The notes under the pieces: model-generated
The model's input: only the letters and a program-made list of their open reading frames with translations
Told to the model about the DNA's origin: nothing
Database searches by the model: none
Shown here: positions 3,060-32,742 of the stretch, piece after piece
Layout of the letters: the number at the start of each line of letters is the position of its first letter
Numbering within the stretch: the stretch's first letter is position 1
Translations under genes and position numbers: made by a program
Assembly: GCF_963576615.1 (NCBI RefSeq)
Contig: NC_088708.1
Span: 52,811,196 to 52,875,195, forward strand
From: Watersipora subatra
Taxonomy: Eukaryota > Bryozoa > Gymnolaemata > Cheilostomatida > Watersiporidae
Direction: 5' to 3'
Length of the DNA stretch: 64,000 nucleotides

Positions 3060-5515
3060 CTTCTCTTGCCATCTGTTCGGTCTAGATTCCTCAGCCTTGT
3101 GTTAAGCTTAGCTACATTTTGTATCTTAGTCTGGGTCTGCCCTGATCTCCCTTTTCTTCGAAGAATTGTGAATATAATAGTTGTCTTGGCAATTGCTCAT
3201 GACCCATACGGTGTACAGGCCCTAGCCATCGTAGGCCTTTTTCTATCAGAATGTCCGCCATGGATGGGAGACCAGCTTGCCCTAAGATTTTGGAATTTTT
3301 GACCTTATCTTTCTAGGTGAGATGCATAGTTGTCTTATCATGACTGTGTGCAGTCTTTTTACTTGCTTTTGGTACACTGTCCAAGTCTCAGCTCTATATA
3401 ATAGGGCTGTTAGTCTTACATTTCTGTATACCTTACATGTGTACAGTTATGTGTACTGCTCCCACAACTTAGCTTGGATGGTTACATGCTTGTTCCTCCA
3501 CGAACGATTCTGAAGTTTTTCAAAGGAAGCACTGGCAGTTTCAATTCTCTGATTAAGTTCTTTATTATTTTTTGGCATTACTGGATACGATACCACTCAG
3601 GTATCTGAAATCTGTGTAGAGTGTGAGAGGTTTGTTGTCTATCAGAAAATCTGTAAGATCAGGTAGTAGATGCAGAAGCTTTACAGGTTGATACAGACAG
3701 TCTGTTTTCTCTATATTTATTGTTAGGCTTAGTTTGGATGCTACACATACAAATCAATCTATAAGCAGTTACATGTACTCAGTCAAGTGGGCAACCAGAG
3801 CGCTTTCATTCGCGAACAACATCTCTTTGACTAGGCATTTGGTTGTGCATGATTTGGATTTTAACTGAGAGACTCCGAAGAGATTGGCACTGTCTTGTTT
3901 GGATGTAAACTCCTTCGCTGTTGTCTTCAAGCATAGCACCGAGATATAATGAGAACAAGGTTGGTGCTAAGACAAAGCCCTGCTTGACACCATTATCTAC
4001 AAAAAACTTCTCTGAAGCATGATACGCCTGAACTACTCAAGTCTGCATTCCGTCATGTAATAATCTTTTTAGGTTTATCATTTTGTCAATGCAGCCTAAT
4101 TTCTTTATAACTATCCAGATACTTTGTCTCAAAACGTATCAAAGGTTTTGATGAAGTCAATGAAAACAGCGTACAAAGGCATGTTTTGTTTTAGATATTT
4201 GCCGTGTGCTTGACGGAGCCTGAACACCATATCCATTGTACAATATCCTTTGCAAAATCCATAAGGGGTGTTTTAGGCAGTACATTTTGTGATAATTTAT
4301 TGATCCTGTTGAATAGTACATGGCCATAATCCTTCCAGCAATTGACAGGAGAGAAATGCCTCGATAGTTCTCACAGCCCGTACGATCTTCTTTTTTAAAT
4401 ATAGGTTTAATGTTAGCATCTTTCCAATCCTGTGGCATTTTTTTCTTCTCTCATTTATCTCTCATCAGTTTGACTAGTGTCATTTGTAGCCGCTGACCAT
4501 CATATTGCTATACTTCTGCGGAGATCCCACATTATCTAGGTGCTCTATTTTCTTTCATTTTGGTGACTACAGCGATGACTTCTACTTCATCTGGTGGCTC
4601 ATCCAGACAGCTCATGATTGGCCTTTGCGTGAGGCAATCTAAAGCACACTGTTCTGTCATTCCTGAGACCTTTGGGAGCTGATTGAAATACTCGGCGAAG
4701 TGATCCCGAATCTGATTTTTGTCCTATTGAACTGTTTCTCCATCAAGTGTTTTTTAGCTGAACCATTGCCTTTTTTATGGGCCATGTGATTCTTTGGGAC
4801 CTGGTAGAATTTTTTCACATCTTTGCGATTGGAAACTGGCTGTAAATATTTTTGCTTTTTCTTTTCACCAATGTTACTTCAGTTTTCTGGTGTATTGCTG
4901 GAGCTTGTGCCCAATTGTTGAAAGTTTTGCCTTGTTCGCTCTGGTGCAACTTGGCAGATGCAAACTTTGTGCACCATTTCTCTCTTTAAGCAGCTGGTTT
5001 AGCTTTGCATTAACCTCTCCGTACCAATCTTAGCGTTTTACGGATAGTATGCCCAGTGCCTCATATGCTGCGTTAAAAGCCAGACTCTTTGAAGTCTACC
5101 AGCGTTCGGTGTTCTCCCCTATTACCTTCTCATCTGATCTTTTATTTATTTTTTTCCTCTATGCTTCCTCGAATCTTGATGTCTTTAAGATTTCCAGCAT
5201 ATATAGCTTTTTCAGTGGTTTTTGACCGTTCTTCCCTTGTTTCCTTTGTATTTTGACTATTATCATGGAACAGACCATGTTGTGGTCTGTACAGCACTCA
5301 GCACCTCTGTAAACATGGGTGTCCATAACATCTTTTTGGTCAACTTTCTTTGTAATCGCATAGTCTAGTAGGTGGCAATGCTTGAACCTTGGATGCATCC
5401 ATGTCGTCTTACGATGATTTTTGTGTTTGAAAATGGTGTTGGTAAGATTGTGCTCTGAGCAGAAAGCAAGCGAAAGTTCACCGTTATCATTATATTTTCC
5501 TAGACCTTGATATCT
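3060..5515 (-). mobile_element. degenerate non-LTR retrotransposon (LINE), endonuclease + reverse transcriptase
   Basis: On the minus strand the pieces of one LINE ORF occur in order. The C-terminal part of an EEP/AP-type endonuclease lies near 5165-5510 (LDYAI, GAECCTDH). A linker with HFAEYFNQLP and DEPPDEVE lies near 4590-4720. Reverse transcriptase blocks follow: WKDANIKPIFKK and NYRGISLLSIAG at 4330-4435, then NGVKQGFVLAPTLFSLYL near 3945-4000. The catalytic FADD box reads FANE near 3800-3840. The C-terminal LRWLGPVHRM and GRPRLRYK segment is at 3130-3270. Several stops and frame changes interrupt it, and the 5' end stops around 5515, as in typical 5' truncation. The clade (RTE-, CR1- or jockey-like) is not decided. 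The 2400-3060 stretch may be its 3' tail. It is not functional. Confidence 0.87.
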
Positions 5516-5554
5516 GAGGAGTGATTATATAGTGCACATTATGCTAAAACAGTA

Positions 5555-7378: not shown

Positions 7379-10082
7379 ATGGGAGTAGCAAGCGATATTC
7401 TAAATTGGTGCGTCTTTAGGATATTCATGTTACTTGTCCCACTGTGTATGTACGCTCGTAAGATTTGGCCATTCTCGGTACTTCACAAATCAATATCAAA
7501 AAATTTAGGAAGGCCGGACAATGGAACTCTGATGTCTCTATTGATAAAACAAGTGAGTTTGGAAATGCCTTGCTTTACATTTCAGAGACAAACTTGGGTA
7601 GAAAAGTATGCTGTTAGTATTTTAGGGGTTGTCTTATCAATAATATTTTCTACGCAGTTCGCAAAGACGCATCCAAATTGTGAGCTTAATGCATTTAAAG
7701 TACGTTTACATTTGTATCAGAGCATGTAGCGTTGTTAAATGCTTATAGTACTCAACAATGCTTCTCACCCGCCTAACTTCTGCCCGCGATTGATTAGAAT
7801 CACTAAAATTAGATACTATTAACTAAAGATTTGTAGCAAAATCTATTCAGTTATTTGCTTATAGTGCTGTATTTCAACTACATGTATGCGAATTAGGGAC
7901 AGGAATTTTATACGATTCCTTTTTCATTTTATCATTTTTTTACTTTTAATGATAAAACTGATGCCTCCCTAAACTTGGAACATCGTAAGTTAGCAGTCAC
8001 TTTGAATATAGAGTTAAATATTAAGTAGAACTTTATGATGTATGCTGGAGGGTTCATATGCTAAGGTAATCGTCTGCACGGAGTTTGACAAAGACACATC
8101 CAAGCTGTGAGCCTAACGACTTCGAAATGATTGGATTTTTGTTCAAGCATATAGTGTTTTTAAATGCTTATGGTATGCATGCATTTAATGTCCTATCAAC
8201 TTACGAGCTGTAAAATTAGATACCATTAATTGAAGGTTTGTAGCGAAATCTATTCAGTTATTTGTTTGTAGTGCTATATTTGAAGTATGTAAACTAGGGC
8301 TTGGATTTGTCTTCCTTATCACTGTAAACGGTTGTCGGCTGTAAACAATCATTGTAATTTTATTGGTGTTTCTCTTATTTATCAACTGCTTATAGTTTTT
8401 AGAGGTTGGCAACGAAGCGGCTGAAACTTTAGCAGTGGATAAATGTGAGATACAATCCTCCGATAAGGTACTGGAGGTCGGCTTCGGACCCGGACTTGGA
8501 ATACAAAAAGCTGCATCCTTGATTGATAGTACATTTTTCAGTGTTTTTGTCTATGCATCACTTTCTTCTTTCCTTTATCGCTTACAAACCTCTAGACATG
8601 TATTGTTATTATATAACAATGTATTATTATATTATAATAATTATTATATAATAATAATTATTATTGTATAATTATTATACAATATTATTTTTGTATTACA
8701 ATATAATATTATACATGTATTCTACATGTATAATATTATATTTATGCCACGTCTTTCGAAACTGCACATCTTTGTGCCAAGATTTTATGCAAACAAAATA
8801 GTAAGTTGTCAGTTTCCAATTGAGTTATATAATAGTTTATCATGGTGAGTTTGAGTTACCTTTTTCTTTTGGTATGCAAATGGAGCTATTTTTAGGCAAA
8901 GTTACACAAACTTAACTTTCGTTTTCCCAGCAAGATAACGGCGTGCCTCATCTGATCAATACGAATTAGAATTACAGCTTACCACTAGGAATATTCTCAA
9001 CTATTTATTGGAACTCAATACCATTGAGTGTAGATGTAGTAACATTTTACTTAGTTATTTGCTGATATCATATGTTTTAGTTGACCTACTAGTCTATCAT
9101 TCATCTAATGTTATGAAATTCTTACACTTAATCTAAACATTTTAAAGTTAATAGATGACAGTCATGTGAGAAGGAATTTATATAGTTTCACAAAAGAGCT
9201 TAGCATGTTTTGGTCATTTTAATCTCATCGAAATGATCAAAATATATACATGAATATCTATGCAGCTCTGAAACATATTCCTTTAGCTCGGCTATGTTAA
9301 TGACGAAATGGGAATTCTACCTGTTTTTGGTAAGATACCTTCGTAAATCACAGTAGGTTTTGCTTTTGTACTTATTACTACAATTTGTTTCTTGTTGTGG
9401 TACAGCTTCTGCTTTTAGCATTTCCAGTCGCAAATGATTTCTTTTGGTACTTTGCGTAGGCCATTGTAAGCATATTTGTTCAGATATCTTTACAATTATC
9501 TGTTTGCGGGTTTTTGACAAACACCAACTCGCCTGCTATTCTTCTGTTGACTATATAAGATAATAGACATTTTATTGGAATGTTTTATATAGTTTGCATG
9601 TATATGCTTTCGATGTCGAAAGATTTAACACATGAAACTAAATTGTAGAATCATGCGGAGGTCATGTATCAGGAGTTGACTACTCCGAATCAATGGTATC
9701 TGCTGCGACTGAACGATTAACACAAGAAATTCATGATGGCCTTGTTGATCTACAACATGGTTCTGTAGCCGACCTACCATATGATAGCAACAGTTTCGAT
9801 AAAATCTTCCATTGCAATGTCTTTTATTTTTGGGACGATTGCGTAGGATGCTGCAGCGAGCTTCTTCGTGTTCTCAAGCCGGGAGGGCTAATGCTTACTA
9901 CCCTAAACCCCAATGCAGTAGCTAATGCCGTATCTTTTGATATTCTGAATAAACAGAATGCTAATATTCCAAACTACCTGGCCGCGCTAAAACAAGCCGG
10001 CTTTGTTAATGTGGTAGTGGTGGATCAACATAGGGGAGGTGCGGTACATGTATGTATTTATGCTTGGGCCAGGAAGGATTAA
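7379..10082 (+). CDS. class I SAM-dependent methyltransferase (Methyltransf_11 type), 3 exons
   Basis: Exons 7379-7552, 8405-8528 and 9649-10082 join in frame (phases 0 and 1) to 243 aa; donors are CAA|GTGAGT and GATA|GTACAT. The N-terminus has a hydrophobic stretch (residues about 7-25) that could be a membrane anchor. SAM-binding motif I is VLEVGFGPG (80-88), the post-I acidic strand is GVDYS (108-112), motif II is the SFDKIFHCNVFYFW region and motif III is ELLRVLKPGG. These motifs define the Rossmann-fold class I family; substrate and pathway cannot be told. Length fits small cytosolic or membrane-tethered members. The ATG at 7379 is the only one that gives the N-terminal exon; a preceding TTTTAG may be an acceptor for a 5' UTR exon. 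It is convergent with the MAP3K gene. A poly(A) signal candidate AATAAA is at 10380. Confidence 0.85.
7655..8310. repeat. tandem duplication inside methyltransferase intron 1
   Basis: Two diverged direct copies lie at about 7655-7905 and 8083-8310. Shared blocks include AAAGACRCATCCAARYTGTG, TTTGTAGCRAAATCTATTC and AGTTATTTGYTTRTAGTGCT. They lie between exons 1 and 2 and carry no open frame. They account for about two-thirds of the intron. This may be an unequal crossover product or two copies of an unknown element. Confidence 0.6.
8595..8760. repeat. AT-rich palindromic simple repeat in methyltransferase intron 2
   Basis: About 165 bp of almost pure A/T with TATTATTATA-type units and self-complementary TACATGTA segments. 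It lies between exon 2 (ends 8528) and exon 3 (starts 9649). A microsatellite with no coding content. Confidence 0.7.
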
Positions 10083-10700: not shown

Positions 10701-13700
10701 TCAGCCGTAGCCACTGGCCAACCAAGGATCTCGTAGAAGCTCTTCCGCCTTGGGACGCTGTGTCTCTGGAGCAAATGTCTTCTCTATAAATTCTCTGGCT
10801 AGTTTGCTGACCTTCTTATCAAGGACGTACTGTGCTTTTTTTAGGTTGGCGATCTTAAACAACGCCGCCATGGCTTCAAGTTCATGCCAAGGAGGGTGTT
10901 TTGTCAGCATTTCAACAATAGTAGCTCCTATGCTCCTGTACATAAAGAAAGTTTTGTAGAAGCTTATTTAACAGAGGTAAATTTCGATGGAGCTTCTCTA
11001 CCGATAACATAACAATAAATTTATGGTCGAGTACCATCGACTAGATACTTTGTAGAAATAATCGTTATTTTGAACATTTTCCCATGACCAAACACGAGCG
11101 ATGCGATTGTTTGGGAGCTTTATGATAAATGCATATGTGCACACAACTCACGACAATTATTCATGAACAGCCGTCCCAAACCCTTGTGCCCAAATCTCAT
11201 CAACAAATTTAACCATTTTTCTATGGAGTCATTTAAGTATAATAATGATACAAAACGCATATAAACCTATTTAAATATGTTACCAAGTCTTTGAAATTTG
11301 TAGACAATATTCTAAAACTTACCCATCTGATCGAATTATATATAAATAGACAGATTAATTTGGCCTAAAATCGCCATTAAAACTTGAAAAGCCTTTTTTA
11401 ATCAAAATTAAGACCGGCCAACGAAACGCCGATAAGGCTGGGCGACAGAAAGTAGAACCATTAAGTCGTGCGCATTTCACGAGAAAAACATGCACATTTC
11501 ACCAGTCTATGGCATTGTATAATTGCCGAAGGTTTCTGTAATTAATGTAGAAGCACTGAAAGGTAATCGTTTCTTTTTTGCCGAGTTCAAAGTAACTGAC
11601 ATTTTGGACACTTATAATGAGTACTTTGGTATTCCAACTGATGTCCAAAGCAGTGAAAGTAAAGGAAATGACGATGATATTTTTCTAACGATTCTTATAA
11701 GATTATTACAATATTTAATTATAAGAAAAATTATTTGATTTTATAAGATTATTATAAGATTTAATTATAAGAATAATCATTCGAATTTACAAGATCAGGT
11801 ATATAGTGACCGACGTTGGGCAATATGTTACTGTTATTATTTTTCTAAAGATTGTGTTGATGATACTACGGCTGTGCCCAATATCGCGGTACTGCCAAGC
11901 CTTTTTAATATCTGCAAAATTAAGTTATAGGCTTACACTTTCTTATAGATATACAGCTATTTCTATGACAACCAACCAAAATCTGTTTAAATTTTTAAAT
12001 TCAGCATAATTTTTTGCATATAAATACAAAAATCTAGATAAATATCACAACTTCTTGATATTGGTCGCCATGACGTTTTGAAATGTAAACAAAATTGCGC
12101 ATTGGTTTTCGTTTCTCAAACTTTAAGACCAGTTTTCTCAAAACTATGTTTTTGCACTAATGGTAAACATGCATTCAGTTTATTGACCATAAAATCTGCT
12201 GTAATTAAGCTGGAATCAAATTTTTGTGTGCAAAATAACTGAGAATTTTCTCCTTCTGCTAGTGTAGATAACTCTAAATCTCACACACCAGACTTAATCA
12301 TGGTTTCTGTGATCATGACCCATTTCTTCACTTTGGTTACAGATCGCTGTCAAAACCATTCTGCATTCAACACAACCAACTTTCAAACTGTGTATATTAC
12401 ACAGCAGCTTGCCATTTTACTTCTAATACCGTATTACATTTCTCCTATTGCAGGGGAGAGATATAAACATATAATCTTTTCCTTTCATTATTGCTGTTTG
12501 TTGTACATAATAACACCTAGTACATTACAGCTACCATTGCAGCTAACATTGCAGTTATCCTATTGCACTGCAGTGCCATTTGACTGCTAATATTGCATTT
12601 CTCAACCAGCAGTACCCTTTCTTTTTTCCAATATCACTTAGGTCGTGGGCTGTATGACGGGAATTTCTAGTTAATATTTATGCTGGTTTTACAAACTCCC
12701 CAAAACTGTATAAAATGCATCATGTAACAAAAAAAATTGCTGGCAACAAGGAGATAGATGTTAAAACCGTGTTTCCAACTGATCGCGATAACAATTATCA
12801 AACATTTTGATAAACGCTCTTGAAACTTATTCTGCATTTTCCACTACTACTCAAACATACTGGCTGTGTAGCCTTACAATCCTTACCATATATCAGCTCC
12901 TCTTCCATATCCATTTCCATTGATAACCTCTGGAGACATCCAATATGGAGTTCCTATCACAGTTTTTATTCCATCTGATAGGGTTTCCCCTTTGAGTGTT
13001 TTGATATTGAGCAATCGTTTGGAGGCACCAAAGTCTGTGAGTTTAACGTTGCCATTGCTGTCTCGCAGGATATTGGCACCTGTTAGAGGCAAAAGATTTT
13101 TTTAGCCATTAAGTTTTTTTTATTTTTCCAATCCACAAAAACAAGCTTACATAATTTACATCTACTCATACACACTACAGACCCATACAACGTGAGAGAT
13201 TGTCATGAGTAATAACTACCATATATGAAGAATTATCTATTGCATCATTAGGGCTCCTGAGTAGTGTAATAGTATCATGCTTGCTTATGAATCTGATACC
13301 CTTAGTTCAATAACCATGTGGGGCACATTTTTATCGCTCTTAGCATGGCTGCGGGCAGACGGAGACCGCTCTTATTATAGTATGGATTGCATCTGACACA
13401 TGGTTGTTTGTTAAATTTTAACTGGCTACAGCTAGGACAAACCTAAACATATATACAATTCTCAATTCGCAAGATGAGCCGTAGTACTTACAGCTTCAGT
13501 GACCATGCATATTAAACCCTAGCTAAAAGCTAATCTAACATAATTTATGCGTTCCTGGAGCAATTTGTTTCAAATTTCTTGGCTTTAAACAACAATTTAA
13601 GTTCAACTCTGAGCTGTATCAAATGTCATGAAAAACTACTTTAATAAAAAGCCATAGTTGTTTGCTCAAAAAGAAGTAAACTCCTATTGAAAATACAAAC

Positions 13701-16700
13701 TCACCTACTTTATTATTGACTTTATAGCAAAAAAAGCCTACCGTAAGTCCTTATGCTCAAGCCGCGCGGCTTGTTTTTGGACGCGGCTCTGGTTCAAGGT
13801 CATAGGCCGCGGCTAAAGCCAAGTTTTTAAAACTTACGTGAGGCTTAGGGCGGCCTCTCGATAAATGCGGTCTCTGCTCAGTTCCGCGCTATAACCATAG
13901 AATCGCAGTCATGATACACTTTTATGTACTGGATTTTGGCAACCTACTCGTTTATTTTCAAGGTCATGTTTATGGAATACTTTAGACTAAAGAAGAATTT
14001 ATCGCTAATGTTTAACTCACCACAGTCATAGGTTATTAAAACCATTCCATTCTTGACCGGCATCTTTCCATAAACTTGAAGCCCTCTAACAGGGCAATAA
14101 AAATCTAGCTGAGGCATGGCAAGTAAGTTCTTGATGCAAGGGTTTAGGAATTTTAATTCGAACTTGGAAGTAAAAGAGAATTATTTTCACATGTACTGAT
14201 GTAGCCTGTTTTCTTATTCAAGAGGACGGGGGTATAGCGAAACCCTTCTCAACACTCTTGCTCCCGAAAGGGTCAAGGACGACAAAACCTCAGTCATTAG
14301 CCGCGGTCTGCGGGCATACGCGGCTTGTTGGAGGATTATTCTTTCGTGAGTCATCTGGTTTTGAGCACAAGCCGCGTGGCTTGAGCACGAGGACTTACGG
14401 TACATTAATTGGACCCCAAAGTTGTTTTAAAAAAATAACATTGTGTATCAAATATTAATAATTTTTTATTAATTTATTTAGTTAATTATTAATTCAATAA
14501 TTTCTAAATGATATTGAGAAGAGTGGTATGTAGGCCTACCTTTGATGCCTCGATGTACCATATATTGTTCATGTAAATATGAGACACCCTCGAGTATGTG
14601 AATGGTGCACTTAATAATAATGTAATGATTTTGAGTAGACTGGTATGTACCTTTGATGTCTCGATGTACAATATATTGTTCATGTAGATATGAGACACCC
14701 TCAAGTATCTGTATGGTGTACTTAATAATAATGTAATGAATTTGAGTAGACTGGTATGTACCTTTGATGTCTCGATGTACAATATATTGTTCATGTAGAT
14801 ATGAGACACCCTCAAGTATCTGTATGGTGTACTTGCGGGTAACGACCTCTGTTAAAGCACCATATGAGTTAAGTTCATCCTTGACCGAGCCACCAGGCAT
14901 GTACTCAATAAAGATGGAGAGAGTATTCTGTATTGTGTCAGCACCCATGTACTGCACTATACGTTCGTGGTGCAGGTTCTTGAGCAACAATATCTCACTC
15001 TCCAAAGCCCGCACTTCCTGTTAATATACAAGCATCAGATCAGAACGACAGTCAGATGTAATTGCTAAGTTGGCCTTATTAATATGTCAGAACTTCTATT
15101 CACAATTTGAGATCCTAAGGCTAAACCTAACCATACTCTATTTTCTCAACACCACTTTTAACTTTCACAACACCGCTTTTATGGTTACAAAAAAAATATT
15201 GCAAACCGAGTGCCACTAACAGCTGCTGCGTATTGAAGTTCAGCCAGTTGATTCGTTGCTGTTTGCTCGGCGCCAGAACCAATCAACGTGTGAAAACAAA
15301 ACAGAGTAAAAAATTTAACTTTGGCATCAACTTTGGAAAAGACAATTAAATGAGTAAAATACTCAAAGTTGAAACATGCCTACATAAAACCAACTGTAAG
15401 GTCAAATTTTATATTATGCAAAATAGCAGCTTTTTTGTCGAAGTAGCTAAGAGCTCGCAAAGGCTGTTAATATACATAGTGTGACCCCAGTTAACAAGCA
15501 AAACTGACATGTTTATTAACTAAATTAAATGTATGTTCCAATCTAACCAGTTTACAGATTGTCAATGGAAGTCATTTAAAGATGACTTCAAAATTAGCCA
15601 GTATACATGTAGAAAGTTCAGCAAGAATAACAAACTTTGCAAACGCTGCAGCTTTCAATTTTCAGCAAGTCAGCAAATTAATATCCTACCGGACCCAAAT
15701 ATTGGTCCGGTTAGGATAGAAATTTGGATATCAGGATATTAAATCTGGTTTCCTAACCAAACAGTTAAAGTAAAGATTATATAAATAGCTACCATAGTTA
15801 TTAGGATCACAAATTCCCTACTCATTTAGAAATTTTCTGTCAACATCTTATGCACGAAAGTGTAAAGGCAATTGTAACAATGTTTGTGGTACTGAGAGGT
15901 TCTAGCCTACTTTCTTTACGTTGTGATCAACTCTATTCTAGGAAACAGTAACGGATGGCATCAGAACTTTAATATACACAAGCAAGCTTGTCTTTCATAG
16001 TTACAATGGATAGCACTAATGATCATTTGTGCCACTTCTAACCATATAGGAATTTTTCTCTAACTATTAACAAAAGTTTGAACAATGAACGATGTTGAGA
16101 GGATTTTAGGGAGATTGAGACCATATATTGCTTACGCATATATATAAACTTAGTTTTACATTCGAACCAAACATTGGAAAAGCCAGACTTTTGAAAAGCT
16201 AATACAAGGATAATTATGATAAAAAAAGGGTGAACCTCTTGTACAAAACACTCATCGCCTTAATTGTACAGAGCTGCTGGTCGAATGACGTGTACTAAAA
16301 CTACTGTAACCGGTGCTGAAACACCTGATTAGTTAATATTTATGGCTAAGAAAAGAATATAATTTCCTTGTGGAAAAAACCTTAGTAATTGTTGGTACAC
16401 TTGAAAAATTCTGACACTGTATGCATGGCTTGTGACTTTATATCCACACGGTGGAAGAATTCTGATAGCTTAATTCACCAGCTCGTTTCACAAAAAAAGA
16501 CTAGAAACTTCCAGCAACATGACAGTGAGGTGGAACAGCGTTAGTACGTAAATGGAAAGCTTGTCATGCTGGTTTTATATATCTTTATAATATATAAAGA
16601 GAACGATAACCAATTATGCATGTTTCAATGACTGCAAATGATTGCGACATGGTTTCAGTTTCTCAGAGAGAACAATTTCAAAGCGACTGCAAGTCGAGCG

Positions 16701-19700
16701 TAAAGGCGAGTTACAATCTCTTCCTATGAAGCAGTTGGCAAATCTAATAAGTGTTTAGAGCTGAAACTTTGAAAAATAAGAATGTCTCCCTCTGCTAAGT
16801 AAACTATTTCTAACAGTGACAACAGCTTCAAAAGTACAAAATAAATTGTCATCATCTAATTCCCTTATCTGATCATGTTCATTAATCTATCGATCTCAAC
16901 CATACTAATTCTATGTTTAGCATGAGAAATAAACATTTTTTAGCTCAGCCTAAATTGAAAATAGTTTCTAGAAATAAACACTGTCTAATCATAGACCTAG
17001 ACACCATAGACTTGAGCATTGCTCCTATATCAGCTGCAAGACCCTGTTCAAGAAAGCATCGAGTGTGATTCACTTGTGAATCACACACCGACTCTTGCAA
17101 TCATCACTCGCGGCCAACAACAGTATTTGGAGTGCTGGTCCCCATTTCATTGCAATGTTCCGGTGAGCCTCTCACCGGTGCTTGCGGCCTAGATGAGGAC
17201 CAGTGCTTGCGGCCTAGATGGGGACCAGCCTCAACAACCTATTCACTACTCATTCTTTACCCCTGATACTATTTGAGAAGCACTAGTATGAGCTGGTTAT
17301 CAGTATATATCTGATAAGGAATCCTATAAAATGCAAACCTTCATACGAAAAGAAGGCCTTGGACATAAATTGTTTAAAATTAATAGTAAAATTGCTATGA
17401 AGACATCGTTGAACACTAGACCGCTTGGTGACACAGAAGAAACTTCCCTTTTACTTCCTTATAGCTCAAGGCAGAGTACTCTACCTTGGATACTTGAGAG
17501 TCTACAGTTCCGAGGTTGACCTGTTTGACGGCCAGCTCTCGGCCTGTGTCCGCGTCATAGCAAAGATAAACGCAACCAAAAGCCCCTGCACCCAGCTGCT
17601 TGCCACGCTTCCAGTTCTTTGGTTGCACAGGTGCTACAAGCATTGGCCATCAATAATAAAATTAAAATTATGTTTTATTAGAAATCTAATATTAATGAGA
17701 TTGAATGCATACAATGCAGTAGTGTTAATAATATTTACCAACTTTTTTAAGTTAACGCTATGACTTATTTTCCTAAAAACCACAATGAAGAATTTGCTGT
17801 AACTTTGTGACAAGGGAGGACAACAGCTTCAGAATTAAATGGTCGTGAGTTGTTTCTGTTACGCTTAGCAGAAGTGTGCTAGACAACAAAACCATACACC
17901 TATCATTGCTATCAAAGTTATGGCAGTGTAGAAGATCAACATTTAAAAAAAACTTTTTATCCGAAGATGTAAGCTTTTGAAAGATATTTTCTTCAAAATT
18001 ATATCTCTGGCTACAATTACCACAACATTGAATGTCTCAAAATTAAAAAATAAAGAATTTGGCAAAATAGAAAATAATTCTAAAGCAATAAAATTGACTA
18101 CTGTTTTTAGAATGAAACTGCTAAATTTCAAAAATATTTTCAATGTGATATCAAAATTATTCCTGCTGAAGTTTTAGTGATTACAGAAATTCAATAAAAG
18201 CAAATAAAGAACGAATAAATCATATCGACTAGGACAATAAGGAGTGACCCATACAGAGAAATGCCGCACGACAGGAAATGCTCCACAATAGGAAGTGCTC
18301 CACAACAGAAAATGAAATGTGCCACAACAGGAAATGCTCCACAGCAGAAAATGCTTTATAACAGGAAATGCTCTATAAGTAGCCATAAGAGTAACTCGAC
18401 AACTAACACTTACATTTGGGATTTTTCAAGTTTTTTAGGTAGGCTACAGCGGTGGTCTTCATGTTGTCATTCGTATCAAGGAAACCACTGCTGCTGGAGC
18501 TATTGCTAATATTTCCCGAGGATAGGGGTTTGTTCCACGACCCACTACCATTACTCAAATTGTCATTTGAAGGAATTTGTTGAAATGAGTTGCTGCCAGA
18601 GTTATCCCCGTTGTACATTCCGGGATTCAAGTTTGGTCTTTTATGCGATTGGCGAGGGAATGTCATAGAAGAAGCTGTAATGAATAGCAAAACCATCATT
18701 TATAACAACTCAACTACTCTATAGAAAAAACAGAATATTCAGATTTGGTGGGTACAGCTGACAACATCTTCTGGGAGAGGAGGGTGGGCGAAAGCGATGA
18801 GAAAAGGAGAAAAAAGGAGAAAAAAAGAAGGTAGAGAAAACGTGTTACATAAAAATGAAGAAATTAAATCCAACAAAATTGCATAACAAAATATTTCTCT
18901 AACCAATGCATATGCTATAATCTTGCTATGTGAAAATATGGTGAATACGTATATTTATTCTCACAAATATAATACCCATAGACACAAGCTAAAGAGCAGA
19001 CAGATAGAACTCTATCAAGTGAGATAATCATACGACACGTATAGACGAAAGTAACTGATCACACGCAGTTATAACTACCAGAAATGAAGCCCATAAATAA
19101 GAAATAAATCAAATGAAGAAAATCATTAAATTAGTTAAAAGCTTTTCGGCAGGTAAACTCAGCGATTAGATGATGAAATGAATCACGGGGATAAAGCAAC
19201 TTCAAACTGTCCGATCACGTGCAGAGTAATACGATATAATGGATTATAAAAAACGTTTGTTTGCGTTTCTACTTTTGACATTAATATGTGCCATCCATTG
19301 CCCTATAATATCCTGCGATCTACCAGCATGTTGGGCACATAACTATATAAAATTCATTTGCGCTGACAACATACAGCGGCTTGCTATAAGTTCTGAAGCG
19401 CTAACAAACCTTTAAGGTACTAAGGTTGTCCAGTATGAATAGCCAACCTTGAATAACTCCATTTTATTGGTATAATGGCATCATTATGTTAGCTCACACT
19501 TTTTCTAACCGACCTTTTCAACTCAGCCCTGACATTAGATTATACTTACTATTAACACGGATGGGAAAAAATTGAGAAAACGGCAGACACTTGGACAGCT
19601 GTCTTAAATGAAATTAGAAACAGCGATGACAAGCTATTCCTATTAAAATTTACATCTGTAAGGTTTGATTGTTCTTAGAATTACAGGTCAATTGGTTCAA

Positions 19701-22700
19701 AAAGAAATGAGAAAAAACAATCAGCTGGATGAAAGAAAGCTGTCAGCTAGCGATAGATGGCTGCGAACAGGGCAGCTTTGGCAAGATACATACAAAAGTA
19801 GACCAGGGGCAAAGCTTAGAATATTCTTGCGGTTGAAAAACAATGTAGATATAAATAACTCGAGGGATGACTAGCTGGCAACAAGCGCAAGATTGGCAAG
19901 TTGACATCTCCAGCAGAAAGGATGAGCAAAGTGCCTCCTAAGTTTTTGATTACAGCAAATGTTGTCTGTCGGTAGCCAGCTTATTCACTTGGCACATACC
20001 TCGATCCGATTCATGGATGTAGGCCGCCACATTCCTACGCGTTGGAAATGTTTCTCCATATTTCCTCTCACTCGGAGACGAGCTATGTCCGTGAATTTCG
20101 TAGCCAGAGTCCGACCGAATACTCATCCGTGAGGAAACATGTGAAAACTTACTGCAAACAACAACACAGTTCGATACACATATGAAACGAAAAATTGTAA
20201 ATTACGAAACCTCAGTAGTACAGCTGCAAGGTAAAAAATTGAATGGTAATTTCCCTATGATAAACCGTCAAATATTTGAATAGTAAATCAGCTGAATTTA
20301 ACTGGTGCAATAACAGTTTAAGGGTAATGCATAGACCTATTAACTACATCGTGGCTTTGCATTGCCCAGTCTAGCATAGTTAATAGGTCTTTGGGGTAAT
20401 GTATGTTAACAACCAGTGCTGCAGTTGAAATTGGCTGCAACGGACAGTTACAAGAGTTGCAAACTCCTATCTGAGTTAGAAGCAGCAATGCCCGTTGCAA
20501 CTGGTTGTAACAGACCAGTTACAACCAGTAACTGGTTCGCACGTTTACGGACCAGTAAATGTACTGTCTATACATTTACTGACTGTAAATGCACAGACAG
20601 TAAGCTGAAGCTCTCTAGTAATGACGGCTTCAACTTAAAGCACAGTTGAGCCAATACAAGCTTTTCCGGTCTTATCACAGTTGTATAGTGATAACTTAAT
20701 GACAGTTCACCGCGCCAGCTAAATTCCCTTCTTTCTTACTTACCTCCCCCGCAGCACCTTATCAAGTTTTTCACTCCATCAGTTATTTATCACCGGCATT
20801 GCATCAGAGAATCAGAGAGTGCCAGATACCTCTCTCTTTAGTAGCATATTCAATACAGACATTTATCAAAAACAAACCTTCACCAGCAGTTATTTAAACA
20901 AACTAACAATGAACAGCAAAACAGTGTGTAATTCACCACACTTTCATCAGACATTAACATAAATTCGAAACAGAAAATTCACACAATGTCGTTGATAAAA
21001 CTTGACCTGATATTTTGTTAATTAACTAACTAGAACTGCAGGAAAAATTAAAAGTTATAAAATTGTATTTAAACTAAGATAGCCAGGGTTCCACTTTTGC
21101 GATGCCTCTATGATTTTATATCATTTATCTTCTATCTTACGATAACCAAACCAACCGTTTCTATGTCAATCGTGAGCGAGAAAAGTTTGCCAAAGAACTA
21201 TGGCGACACAATTCCATACTCAGAATGTAGCGATAATACGCAGTTCTTCAACTCATTGAATAACTACTCAGCAGACGGACTCTGACAAACTTAGTCCTTG
21301 AGAGTGAAGTTAAAATACTGACACTAAATTGGAAAATTAATTTAATGATCGATAACCTGTCACGGACTGCTTTAAATAAAGTACATCGACGCGAAAAAAT
21401 TCCAAAAACTCCATAATTAAATATTTTGAAATTGTTGGTTTCCACGTGGGTCGTGGCACAGACTCACGCAGAAGCAATAACAGCGACACTCTGCAGGCTT
21501 TATGAACTCCCCTAACCGAGTGGAATACATACAATCCACAAACACATGGTCCTCGTTTATCTATAATATTAGGTGAGAAAAATGGAGAAGTTGTAGTGTA
21601 GCGGTTATAGTCCCGACTTATGATCAGTAAGTTGGTGGTTTGAGTTACAAAACAATCATTGGTGGTGTTAGGAAAGACATGCATCACAATTGTTCCTGTG
21701 CTACTCCAGAACAAGTCTGTAAACTGCCCTGAAAAGCCCTCAAGTTTTTTCACAAGGCTTTCATACCATAAACAAGCCGTGAGTTTTTAGTAGGTACGAA
21801 AAAAGGTCTTCAAGGCTTTGATATTTTAATGAAGTACATCCCTGGCCTGCAGCAGATTTATACTGAACAGGGTATGAAACAAACATTGAAACTGGTATAA
21901 CATGCTATAAAAAAGTTGCTCCGATACTCTTGGACATGGAGATAAACTTAATTAAGCCTTAATTAGACATCACTTCCATTTTTTTAAAACAAGGTCACCC
22001 ACTATTACTAATATTACCAAAACAAGGTCATCAGCTATTACTAATTTCACCAAAACAAGGTCACCTCCTATTACTATTATCACCAAAACAAGGTCACCCC
22101 CTATTACTAACATCACCAATACATCTTTGCAGCTGAGGATATTAATCAGTAGGAAACCAAATGCTTCAATAAATAAATAGTCTACATTTAATCAAAAACT
22201 TGCTACGATTTTTCATTAAAATGAAGCTATCAACGCTTTAACCCCGATATATCGAGTATGGAAAAAGCACTAAAATGTAAAATCGTGGGAGTTAGAGTTT
22301 GTATGCCAAGCGAAGACTGGTAGATTGAGACTATTAGCTTGGCATTTTAATAATGTCGTCATTTATTTGTCAATGGCAAATCGACAGCAATCACTCATAA
22401 TTATTGAGAGCTTATCTGTAATTTCTAACAGACAAGAAATTTGTTTAGTTTAAGTAAAGAATCATCTGGTGAGATGATAAAAAAAGCAAAAAGACTCGCT
22501 AGCAATTAGGTTGAGCAGTGATTGACTGATTTTTTCACCCCAACTGGTTAGTGATAGTTTCTTGTTGATTATTAGAAAATCATTTGGTTTTTTCAATGTT
22601 TTAAATATTATGAATGGCAGAAAAGTTTGCCAGAGCTTTAGAAAGACAACAAATGCCAACAGATGCCATGAACCACGTGCTTATAGTTTTGTATCTGCAG

Positions 22701-25700: not shown

Positions 25701-28700
25701 TTTGCCAGAAATCTCTACAAATCATATACTATTGAATGCAGAACATTTTACAAATAAATATGAAATAATTTTCAAATAAGCAGCAATTGACAATTAGTTT
25801 TGTTCAATGAAAATGCATCTGCAACTGACAAAAACCAGAAGATAGCCTAATTATTCACTCATTGTATTCTCAACTAATTAATTTTGTGATACTACTGCAA
25901 CATAATTTGAACAAATTTTGTAATAATTGGTGACCCTAAAAAGGCCTATTGGAGGTGTGTAAAGTGATTTGTGATCAGACACTGAAGATATAACAAGATG
26001 ACACTAAATCCATCTCCTCGATTATAACATTAGACTGAAAGGTTTTTGCTTTATTTTGCTAAAACAAGGAGAAATCTCTGCATCAACTGATGTGCAATAT
26101 GTGGGAATTAAATGGATTAACATGGCTCCAGCGAGGGTGTCAAGATGAACAAAAGCATTAACTATTGGGGGTTTCATAATTTCAGACAACACTGTATTTG
26201 TGGAAGTCTGGTGCTACTATAGCGCGAGATCTACCACATTATAACATGGGATCTACCACACTATACAGCGAGGTCTACCTCCTGTTAGAACTATAACGTA
26301 AGGTCTACTGCTGAATTATTCATACCTTATAAATAAAACACATTTCATAAATTTATTTAAGTAATAAATGATATGTACATATCTTAGAAATGACGTAAAA
26401 ATAATTGGATTTCTAATTACACTAAAAAAATAAAGGTAAAAATAAACATATTATCATATACTTCCAGACATTAATTCTAGCGATACACTCTTCGTACATC
26501 AAACATGTTATCATATACTTCATGTGGTATCGAACGTGGTGTATTATACATTTTGTACATTATATAGTATATTATATTGGATATAATATACTATATAGTA
26601 TATAATATAGAAAGTATATAATAATGTGTATTATATATATTATAACATAATTATACTTATATTATAATATAATTGTATATATTATAAAATTATAATATAC
26701 CAATATAATATATTATATATAATATGATATACTGGATAGTATATAATATTATATAGCACATTAGACATTTCGAATGCAACATATATATTTTACATGGTAT
26801 ATTTCAGGGGTACGAACATCAGTCACATGGTAGACCTTACCCTTTGCCTGGGTAGGCCACATATGGCGATAGACCTCACGCTATAGTAGGGCCAGATGTC
26901 CATAGACTAAAAGGACAATTATAGCAGAAAAGGGTCAAACTCAAAGAAGCTCAAATCCCATGCTCTATGGAATAGTCTAGGAGGCAGGCTTACCGAGTCG
27001 GCCCCAGAGACCTTCTGTGGAGTATCCTGCAGCATGAGTCTGACGGAGTTACCCTGTCCATTGACCTGATCTAAAATAGCTGTCAAGTCATCTTGGTCTG
27101 TTACCTGAAAGTATGTAGGAGACACTTGAATAAGTCTGCCTCTCCAGTCATGCGAACTCGAAGCGATCTTAGGTTGAATTCATCGAAACGCTTAAAACTT
27201 GACTAAGCATTTTTATACACTACGAAATATCAGGAACTACCCATGCGCTCACTTGGTATGCATTTGATGGGTTGAGGGCTCTCATGTATTGATGATGAAG
27301 TGATTTATGCTAACCCAGACCATGAGCAATGATTACAAAATAACATAAGGGGGAAGGAGTAAAGTTACATGCAGTTCCACTTATTGTACCTAACAAATGT
27401 GTTGGTGTTGCGTAACAGGATGACATCAGCATAAAAATGATGTCTATATATTATTAGCATTTTTATCTTCATCTAAATCATAAGATTTACTATTAGTTTT
27501 GACTTTTTAAAAATTCTGATTTTTTAGAGAGTAGGTTTTGCAACTAACAAAATCTATAAAAACTGATAGTCCGAATTACCAGATATGCATCCAAATTCAC
27601 AACCACGAAATCATGAAAAGAATTATAATGTATTAGAAATTGCTCCTTATTTTGAAATGTCGAATCAAATACGAATGGTAATCACTAGTTGTAGTCATTG
27701 TTTTCAATTACCGGTTGCCAGATATCATCTTAGAAGGTTAAAAAAAGCCTTGTTGGTCTCTATATCCTGCAGGCTATATGCTGCAGCTATGGAAGCAATC
27801 AGCAATGCTAATTGATACCACTTCGATACGAGAATAATATATTGGCCCTTCTGACAATCAATCAGAATACATTATAATTTTTATGTCTAAATTAATTGTG
27901 GCTTTCTGCCAGACATGGATCGCTAGTTCGATGGCGTGACAGAGCTTTTAATCGACCATCCCGCTCTCAAGGCGCTTCTACACTAGCCACATGTTAAATT
28001 ACCAATTTGGACAAATACGGGTGAAACGACAAGAGCTGGTGCTTGCCCGAGAAGCCTATCATAAATCGACTGGTTGGAAATTCCATAACTAATTTATTAT
28101 CAGCAAACTGAATGAGATTACGTTCAACTACTTGCGCGACTGTAATTTTCAATAAACTACCTTTGCACGTCGCACAAATAAAGAATTTTTTTGCAGAATT
28201 ATAACAAATAAAAGTAAATGCGCTCGCTACCATTTAAGTAGCCCACTATAGGGCTGTCATGAGAAATTCTATTGCTGCAACAGATATAAGTTCTTGGCAA
28301 GTCTTACCATTTGATCAGTTTATTTTGGGGTTCTTCATAAAAACTGCCTTTTTTATACAGACATGTTAACTGAATATGCAAGATTAATGATGTTTTTCTC
28401 CCGGTTCATCACGCACTAGTGACACTCCAGTACTAGCCAGTTTTATTGCCAAACGTTTTATGCTTGGTATCTTTATTGAGATCTCATAAACAATGAACTT
28501 TAACCAGACTATCGAGTAGAGAAAAAACAACAATGAAAATTTGGCGTGATACATACTTGTCCTCGCTGTTGGTGAAAGACATGTTTGAATGAACCAAAAT
28601 AATCCTTGATTTTAGTCAGCAACTGATCATAGTAGACAGGCTTGGGTAGAGTGCATACCCTTGACTCGCCATTGTATGTAAGTTTAAACTTCTGTTCCTG

Positions 28701-31559: not shown

Positions 31560-32140
31560 TGCAAAGAATGGTCAGGGAAGATCTCGATTGTGCAGTCTTG
31601 AGACTCGGCTGTTAAAACTTTAAACAATATAACAACTTTTTCATATACATGTATATGTGAAACCACTTGAGATTTGCCCTCCTCAGTTTGCTCTATACGT
31701 GATAACACATTCGAGTGCTGTAAATTATGCATTTTTAGAACAGTCAACACAATATTTTATTTGAGCTGAGATGACGAAATATTGAAACAATAGTTGTTTT
31801 CATATTTCTGGTACCTTTAAAAATGAAAGATATGCCGTTTCGATAACAATTAAATAGGTTCAATAAAAACAGACAAAAACATGTAACTTTAAGCTTTGCT
31901 GACTCTGGGAATAATACAATGATACAACATTGTTTGCATTAATATACAGCAGCACGCAATAAACAAGAATTCCTTAACACCGATACAAAAACTTGGGTAC
32001 AATGATAATTATATTTGAAGATCAGTTTTATGGCATATCTTAGGATGTCTTATACAAAATTCTACAAACTTTGACAAAAGTTGATGAGGCAGTAATAATG
32101 CACTGCCTGTAACATTAAAATTTTTCAGCTAGCCCAATAA
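31560..32140. other. upstream flank of the MAP3K first coding exon
   Basis: No second coding exon with matching phase was found here. The region is expected to hold a 5' UTR intron or the promoter. The acceptor TTAATAG just before the first coding exon implies that at least one 5' UTR exon lies further upstream on the minus strand; its location was not found. Confidence 0.35.
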
Positions 32141-32141
32141 G

Positions 32142-32742
32142 TAATCATCTATATAACTAGTTGTCTATATAACAAGTCGTCTATATAACTAGCAGACAAT
32201 ATAATTAGTGGTTTATATAACTAGTCGTCCATATAACTAGTTGTCCATAAACTAATCGTCCATATGACTACTGACTAGTCATCTATAAAACTAGTCATCT
32301 GTATAACTAGTCGTCTGTATAACCAATCGTCTGTATAACCAATCGTCTGTATAACCAATCGTCTGTATAACTAAACGTCTATATAACTAGTCATCTGTAT
32401 AACTAGTCCTCCATATAACTAGTCGTCTATATAACTAGTCGCCTATAAAACTAGTCGCCTATATAACTAGCCATCCATATAAATAGTCGTCTATATAACT
32501 AGTCCTCCATATAACTAGTTGTCCATATAGCTAGTCGTCTATATAACTAGTCGACTGTATAACTGGTCATCCATATAAATAGTCGTCTATATAACTAGTC
32601 CTCCATATAAATAGTCGTCTATATAACCAGTCCTCCATATAACTAGTTGTCTATATAACTAGTCATCCATAAACTAGTAGTCTATATAACTATTCGCCTA
32701 TATAATTAGTTGTCTATAAGCTAGGTCGTTGTCCATATAACT
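32142..32742. repeat. 17-bp minisatellite, ACTAGTCGTCTATATAA family
   Basis: About 35 tandem units of 16-18 bp spread over 600 bp. The constant part is ACTAGTC and the variable part is GTCTATATA / CTCCATATA / ATCCATATA, with longer-period alternation around 32400-32660. The units contain ACTAGT palindromes. No unique spacers, so it is not a CRISPR-like array. It lies just upstream of the MAP3K gene. Confidence 0.92.

Follow-up and report, generated by a model that had tools for sequence, protein, structure and literature searches.

The stretch of Watersipora subatra DNA that we analyzed, 64,000 nucleotides in length and hereafter the window, carries on its minus strand a protein kinase gene whose catalytic domain is distributed over four exons. 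The first, K1 (17485..17633), encodes the glycine loop and the ATP-site lysine, ends in ...VSK and joins in frame to K2 (14762..15017, 256 bp), which extends from EVRALES to YIVHRDIK G between a TTAACAG just before 15017 and an AAAG|GTACAT at 14762. K3 (12887..13079) ends in ...ADIW and lies between the acceptor TCTAACAG and a GTAAGG donor, while K4 (10701..10935) is joined in frame and supplies the terminal ...SGYG and the stop codon; the placement of all four is based on reading frame and alignment to MAP3K2. With K2 spliced from the donor at 14762 to K3, the four exons give one frame encoding an uninterrupted kinase domain of 276 residues that closes with a stop. Among solved structures, residues 1-269 of these 276 match MAP3K2 (9p6a) with 349.9 bits (E 7.8e-104), the next relative being MAP3K5 at 160.9 bits in the best 60 of 2759 matches, a set from which MAP3K3 itself is absent; the Pfam Pkinase match scores 221.5 bits. 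Further upstream on the same strand lies a probable PB1-domain exon of the same gene (28557..28697, with CAG| and |GTATGT chosen by eye as its boundaries), whose top Pfam match is PB1 (E 0.0021), although at 18.4 bits this falls below the curated cut-off of 23.6 and covers only positions 3-37 of 84. A tblastn search with a MEKK3 probe also matches this exon (E 0.013) and weakly matches an upstream linker exon with SPPPG...GEFIPE (E 0.15). The gene fits the MEKK2/3 (MAP3K2/MAP3K3) type, in agreement with the identity given to it in an initial annotation made from the sequence. Tail to tail with it, on the plus strand, lies a Class I methyltransferase gene (8396-10082, the 8396 end placed partly by eye), in which 9642-10079 gives a Pfam match to Methyltransf_11 (E 4e-17).

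At the 3' end of K2 the minus strand bears three head-to-tail copies of a 111-bp unit, from 14834 to about 14507. The unit starts at AAG TAC ACC (K-Y-T), which we take to lie in the alpha-E helix, runs through the catalytic loop YIVHRDIK G and ends 38 bases into the intron; copy 1 (14724..14834) accordingly consists of 73 bp of K2, including the leading AAG, and 38 bp of intron, a slight correction to the division into 72 and 39 bp first proposed. Since the unit spans the end of an exon and the start of an intron, the 5' splice site has been copied along with the exon end and the 3' splice site has not. Copy 2 (14613..14723) is identical to copy 1 at 110 of 111 bases, the one difference (0.9%) falling in the intronic part. 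Copy 3 (14507..14612, the 14507 end being approximate) shows 84.0% identity to copy 1 over 106 columns, with differences at 7 of 73 exonic bases, four of which alter the amino acid (Y>C, Q>H, I>M and D>G), and at 4 of 25 ungapped intronic columns. The catalytic HRD of copies 1 and 2 reads HRG in copy 3, which also has six extra bases (GGCCTA); the initial annotation had recorded both features, and we can place the insertion just inside the intronic part. Within the window copies 2 and 3 match copy 1 with E-values of 5.9e-53 and 4.5e-29, and repeat matches of such length are far beyond chance; Tandem Repeats Finder gives the array a score of 540, second among its 48 rows for the window (top score 611). 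The copies are in direct contact at spacings of 111 and 111 and share one breakpoint, ATTATT|AAGT, at both internal junctions, the configuration of a tandem genomic duplication. Elsewhere in the 64-kb window no further copy of the unit was found, apart from an 18-base match at 1662-1645 (E 0.22); weak palindromic self-matches occur within the array.

Each copy ends its exonic part in AAAG|GT, with the last exonic bases at 14762, 14651 and 14540 (donors 1, 2 and 3), just as had been annotated. Donors 1 and 2 read AAG|GTACAT and share the same 73 bases on their upstream side and 21 on their downstream side, whereas in copy 3 the six bases GGCCTA separate GTA from CATACC, so that donor 3 reads AAG|GTAGGC (compare GTAGGCCTACATACC in copy 3 with GTACATACC in copies 1 and 2). 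Being intronic, the insertion leaves the added peptide untouched but alters the donor. The six bases are flanked by two TA steps (TA GGCC TA), and copies 1 and 2 may instead have lost them by a short microhomology deletion, a direction of change that we infer and under which GTAGGC would be the ancestral donor. On a 5'-site matrix the three donors score 1.31, 1.31 and 4.62, and their computed U1 duplex energies are -5.6, -5.6 and -9.2 kcal/mol. The five other presumed donors of the gene, three of them from upstream exons placed by eye, range from 0.89 to 5.26 by the matrix and from -5.1 to -8.5 kcal/mol in U1 pairing; donor 1 is weak, yet inside this range. Donor 3 is the best of the eight by U1 pairing and the third by the matrix, where two others reach 5.26 and 4.93 against its 4.62. 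By U1 pairing the prediction favors the outermost donor over the other two, a point that the initial annotation had missed. RNA folding with three window sizes gives donors 1 and 2 mean unpaired probabilities of 0.55-0.60, and donor 3 values of 0.45-0.50; predicted structure would slightly disfavor donor 3 without being decisive, and offers no clear reason for donor 1 to win.

A stop-to-stop open reading frame of 180 codons (14478-15020) remains open from the start of K2 through all three copies and both intronic spacers. Splicing to K3 is predicted to yield the normal domain from donor 1, with copies 2 and 3 lying in an intron at 13080..14761, and in-frame products longer by exactly 37 residues from donor 2 and 74 from donor 3, as the initial annotation had closely estimated. 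It had further expected both longer isoforms to be probably dead or dominant-negative, and here the two part company. The predicted donor 3 product joins HRG to GAN; such a junction lacks the catalytic base and should render the protein inactive. The predicted donor 2 product retains one intact, contiguous HRDIKGAN loop, as its last copy is intact, which would effectively place the insert within the alpha-E helix; such a protein is not necessarily dead, and may or may not be active. Going by these predicted products, only donor 1 would surely yield the normal enzyme. Some use of donors 2 and 3, giving in-frame +37 and +74 read-through isoforms, is nevertheless to be expected, because donor 2 equals donor 1 and donor 3 is both stronger and nearer to the acceptor.

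If splicing ran chiefly from donor 3, most of the kinase produced would be dead, and we considered whether the array marks a loss-of-function allele, in which this strongest, acceptor-proximal donor is used, the haplotype produces mainly inactive kinase, and the gene is either redundant or rescued by the other allele. When the 110 GT sites between 15017 and 13080, covering exon and intron, are ordered by matrix score, donor 3 comes third and donors 1 and 2 take places 10-11, and where two donors are equal, splicing often favors the one nearer the acceptor. Set against this, K1, K3 and K4 are intact with open frames, although the diverged downstream copy is old enough to have gathered 7/73 exonic differences, among which the HRG change may have come early or late. 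We regard such an allele as improbable.

The same three donors invite a regulatory interpretation, raised in the initial annotation as a tolerated alternative-isoform switch: donor 1 would make the active MEKK and donors 2 and 3 longer isoforms, that from donor 3 being kinase-dead through its HRG, and damping of the pathway by the inactive form would be the reason for keeping the arrangement. Each of the three donors reads AAAG|GT and preserves the frame, both intronic spacers are open, and donor 3 has the best predicted U1 pairing of the eight donors compared, though two others stand higher by the matrix. Much of this pattern is likely to arise by chance, however, given that 8,995 of 19,807 random 38-base segments (45%) from the window's minus strand outside the array are open in the needed frame, and that a unit length divisible by three is expected in about 1 in 3 cases. 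When 7 substitutions were placed neutrally on the exonic part in 20,000 simulated runs, 66% stayed stop-free, so that the lack of a stop or frameshift in the exonic part of copy 3 is also explicable by chance. These stop-free runs carried a mean of 4.9 amino-acid changes, against the 4 seen in copy 3, and 35% of them had four or fewer; by this simulation there is no sign of constraint on copy 3, whose 4 changes are not significantly below neutral drift. Copy 2, with an exonic part identical to that of copy 1, is uninformative on selection. Nor is a difference in divergence shown between the exonic and intronic parts of copy 3 (7/73 against 4/25 ungapped columns; Fisher p 0.46, the six-base gap and the intronic columns beyond the 25 being excluded). 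The open frame is weak evidence and does not show selection. At each of the four sites where its amino acid differs, copy 3 has moved away from the residue found in MAP3K2 and kept in copies 1 and 2; it thus looks like decaying sequence, and the last duplication is almost unmutated, which leaves little time for selection on the three-copy state. A selected switch is possible in principle, finds no positive evidence in these figures and strikes us as unlikely. The same doubt attaches to its more specific form, a young three-way donor switch in a MAP3K in which the weak donor 1 gives the active kinase and the stronger donor 3, set apart by the 6-bp difference, gives a form longer by 74 residues; this we hold to be quite doubtful. 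If a switch did operate, splice-site competition would set the ratio of active to dominant-negative MEKK, and the only GAN-contiguous loop of the donor 3 form would be one without the catalytic Asp.

Based on the divergence of the copies and their shared junctions, we instead propose that the array arose by two successive tandem duplications spanning a 5' splice site, that donor 1 serves to make the working kinase, and that copies 2 and 3 persist as intronic passengers or give rise to aberrant isoforms; we assign this a probability of roughly 0.62. In the first step, a 111-bp piece comprising the exon end and the intron start of a single-copy MEKK2/3 exon would have been duplicated. The downstream copy, now copy 3, would then have accumulated changes as non-coding sequence, whereas constraint would have continued to act on the upstream copy, the true end of K2. 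Later, an in-register exchange or slippage within the array, or a conversion, would have re-duplicated the upstream copy to give copies 1 and 2. This order of duplication, downstream drift and recent upstream re-duplication (or conversion) is the likely one because copies 1 and 2 differ by 0.9% while copy 3 differs at 7/73 exonic bases, and the presence of ATTATT|AAGT at both junctions is most simply explained if the second duplication occurred in register within the first. The earlier description of the array as a very young accident would accordingly suit its last step, from copy 1 to copy 2, but not its first, to which copy 3 bears witness. Splicing from donor 1 to K3 would produce a working kinase, copies 2 and 3 leaving with the intron, and the +37 and +74 isoforms would be by-products and not a selected switch. 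That copy 1 was conserved and K1, K3 and K4 stayed intact during the decay of copy 3 suggests a sufficient level of splicing from donor 1 to K3. Counting against this reading, donor 1 is no different from donor 2, falls short of donor 3 in strength and has the longest distance to the K3 acceptor. We infer the order of events, the use of donor 1 and the lack of selection, and a tolerated accident with by-product isoforms is in our assessment the best-supported view of the locus.

The close similarity of copies 1 and 2 could have another source, namely an error of assembly or haplotype merging, whereby the true locus holds two copies (1 and 3) and copy 2 stems from a mis-joined heterozygous array. 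A single-base difference is about what two alleles could show; on the other hand, an array of about 330 bp is within reach of ordinary long reads, which makes such an error rather unlikely, and copy 3 has diverged too far to have been created in assembly, which makes at least one duplication real.

Tandem duplication of AGGT-containing sequence is a proposed and partly demonstrated route to new splice sites, according to PMC4974935, and one might envisage intron gain or recursive splicing at the array, with each AAAG|GT serving as both a 3' and a 5' site (a zero-length exon) and the copies being removed stepwise to leave the mRNA unchanged. We think this very improbable, as no polypyrimidine tract precedes the AAAG (the sequence there is TTGTACATCGAGACATC) and the extra step would be superfluous should direct splicing from donor 1 suffice. 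The second site resembling an acceptor, TTATTATTAAG|T, fares no better: were the AAG at the start of copy 2 or copy 3 to act as acceptor, the resulting separate exon is computed to be a 70-nt cassette, leading through a frameshift to a stop codon. Mutually exclusive use of duplicated exons was likewise considered and rejected, given that each copy starts inside the exon and has no proper acceptor, and that the 70-nt use is out of frame.

Tandem duplications that copy splice signals are already known, and the MEKK2/3 array is a further case. In PMC4974935, the potato RdRp gene illustrates a tandem genomic duplication at an exon-intron border, with ATP2A1/2 cited alongside; there, as here, an internal tandem duplication copies splice signals together with exon sequence and alters the possible splicing. 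Those cases involve a new intron, however, whereas in the kinase gene the 5' splice site is multiplied with no strong new acceptor. Tandem duplicated exon substitution, described in PMC9741552 as the use of mutually exclusive exons in which key residues are maintained, shares with the array the adjacency of copies of a coding exon piece; it differs in that the copying here is confined to the 3' part of the exon, without a proper acceptor, and in that copy 3 has lost the catalytic Asp. Competition of several donors for one acceptor, with strength and position both of consequence, recalls intron 4 of DOK7, where, according to PMC5585400, strength and SRSF1 binding decide between donors 11 nt apart and of different sequence; the kinase donors lie 111 nt apart, and two of them are identical over the 73 upstream and 21 downstream bases. 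No MEKK2/3 exon duplication appeared in the titles and abstract openings among the literature matches listed, the gene name having served as a search term only in part. The array can be viewed as a natural duplicated-5'-splice-site experiment, with two donors of the same sequence and a third with a changed U1 match facing one acceptor in the catalytic segment of a kinase; as such it bears on position versus strength in donor choice, and on the survival of a gene after such an event, although as kinase biology it is probably ordinary.

Several other repetitive features were observed in the window, in which Rfam and tRNA scans of all 64 kb returned 0 matches. Shortly beyond copy 3, in the intron between K2 and K3, 36-nt inverted repeats that are 92% complementary and 592 nt apart, with outer TA (TACCGTAAGTCC...), delimit an element at 13739-14402 that looks like a short non-autonomous Tc1/mariner-type element (MITE). 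Minus-strand open reading frames at 4157-5524 look by eye like endonuclease and reverse transcriptase pieces from a non-LTR retrotransposon; the two pieces searched gave no Pfam match at E 0.001. A 33-bp tandem repeat of 4.2 copies at 21986-22123 lies, judged by eye, within an intron of the kinase gene, and a large satellite-like array of 36 copies of a 16-bp unit (ATAACTAGTCGTCTAT) occupies 32137-32718.
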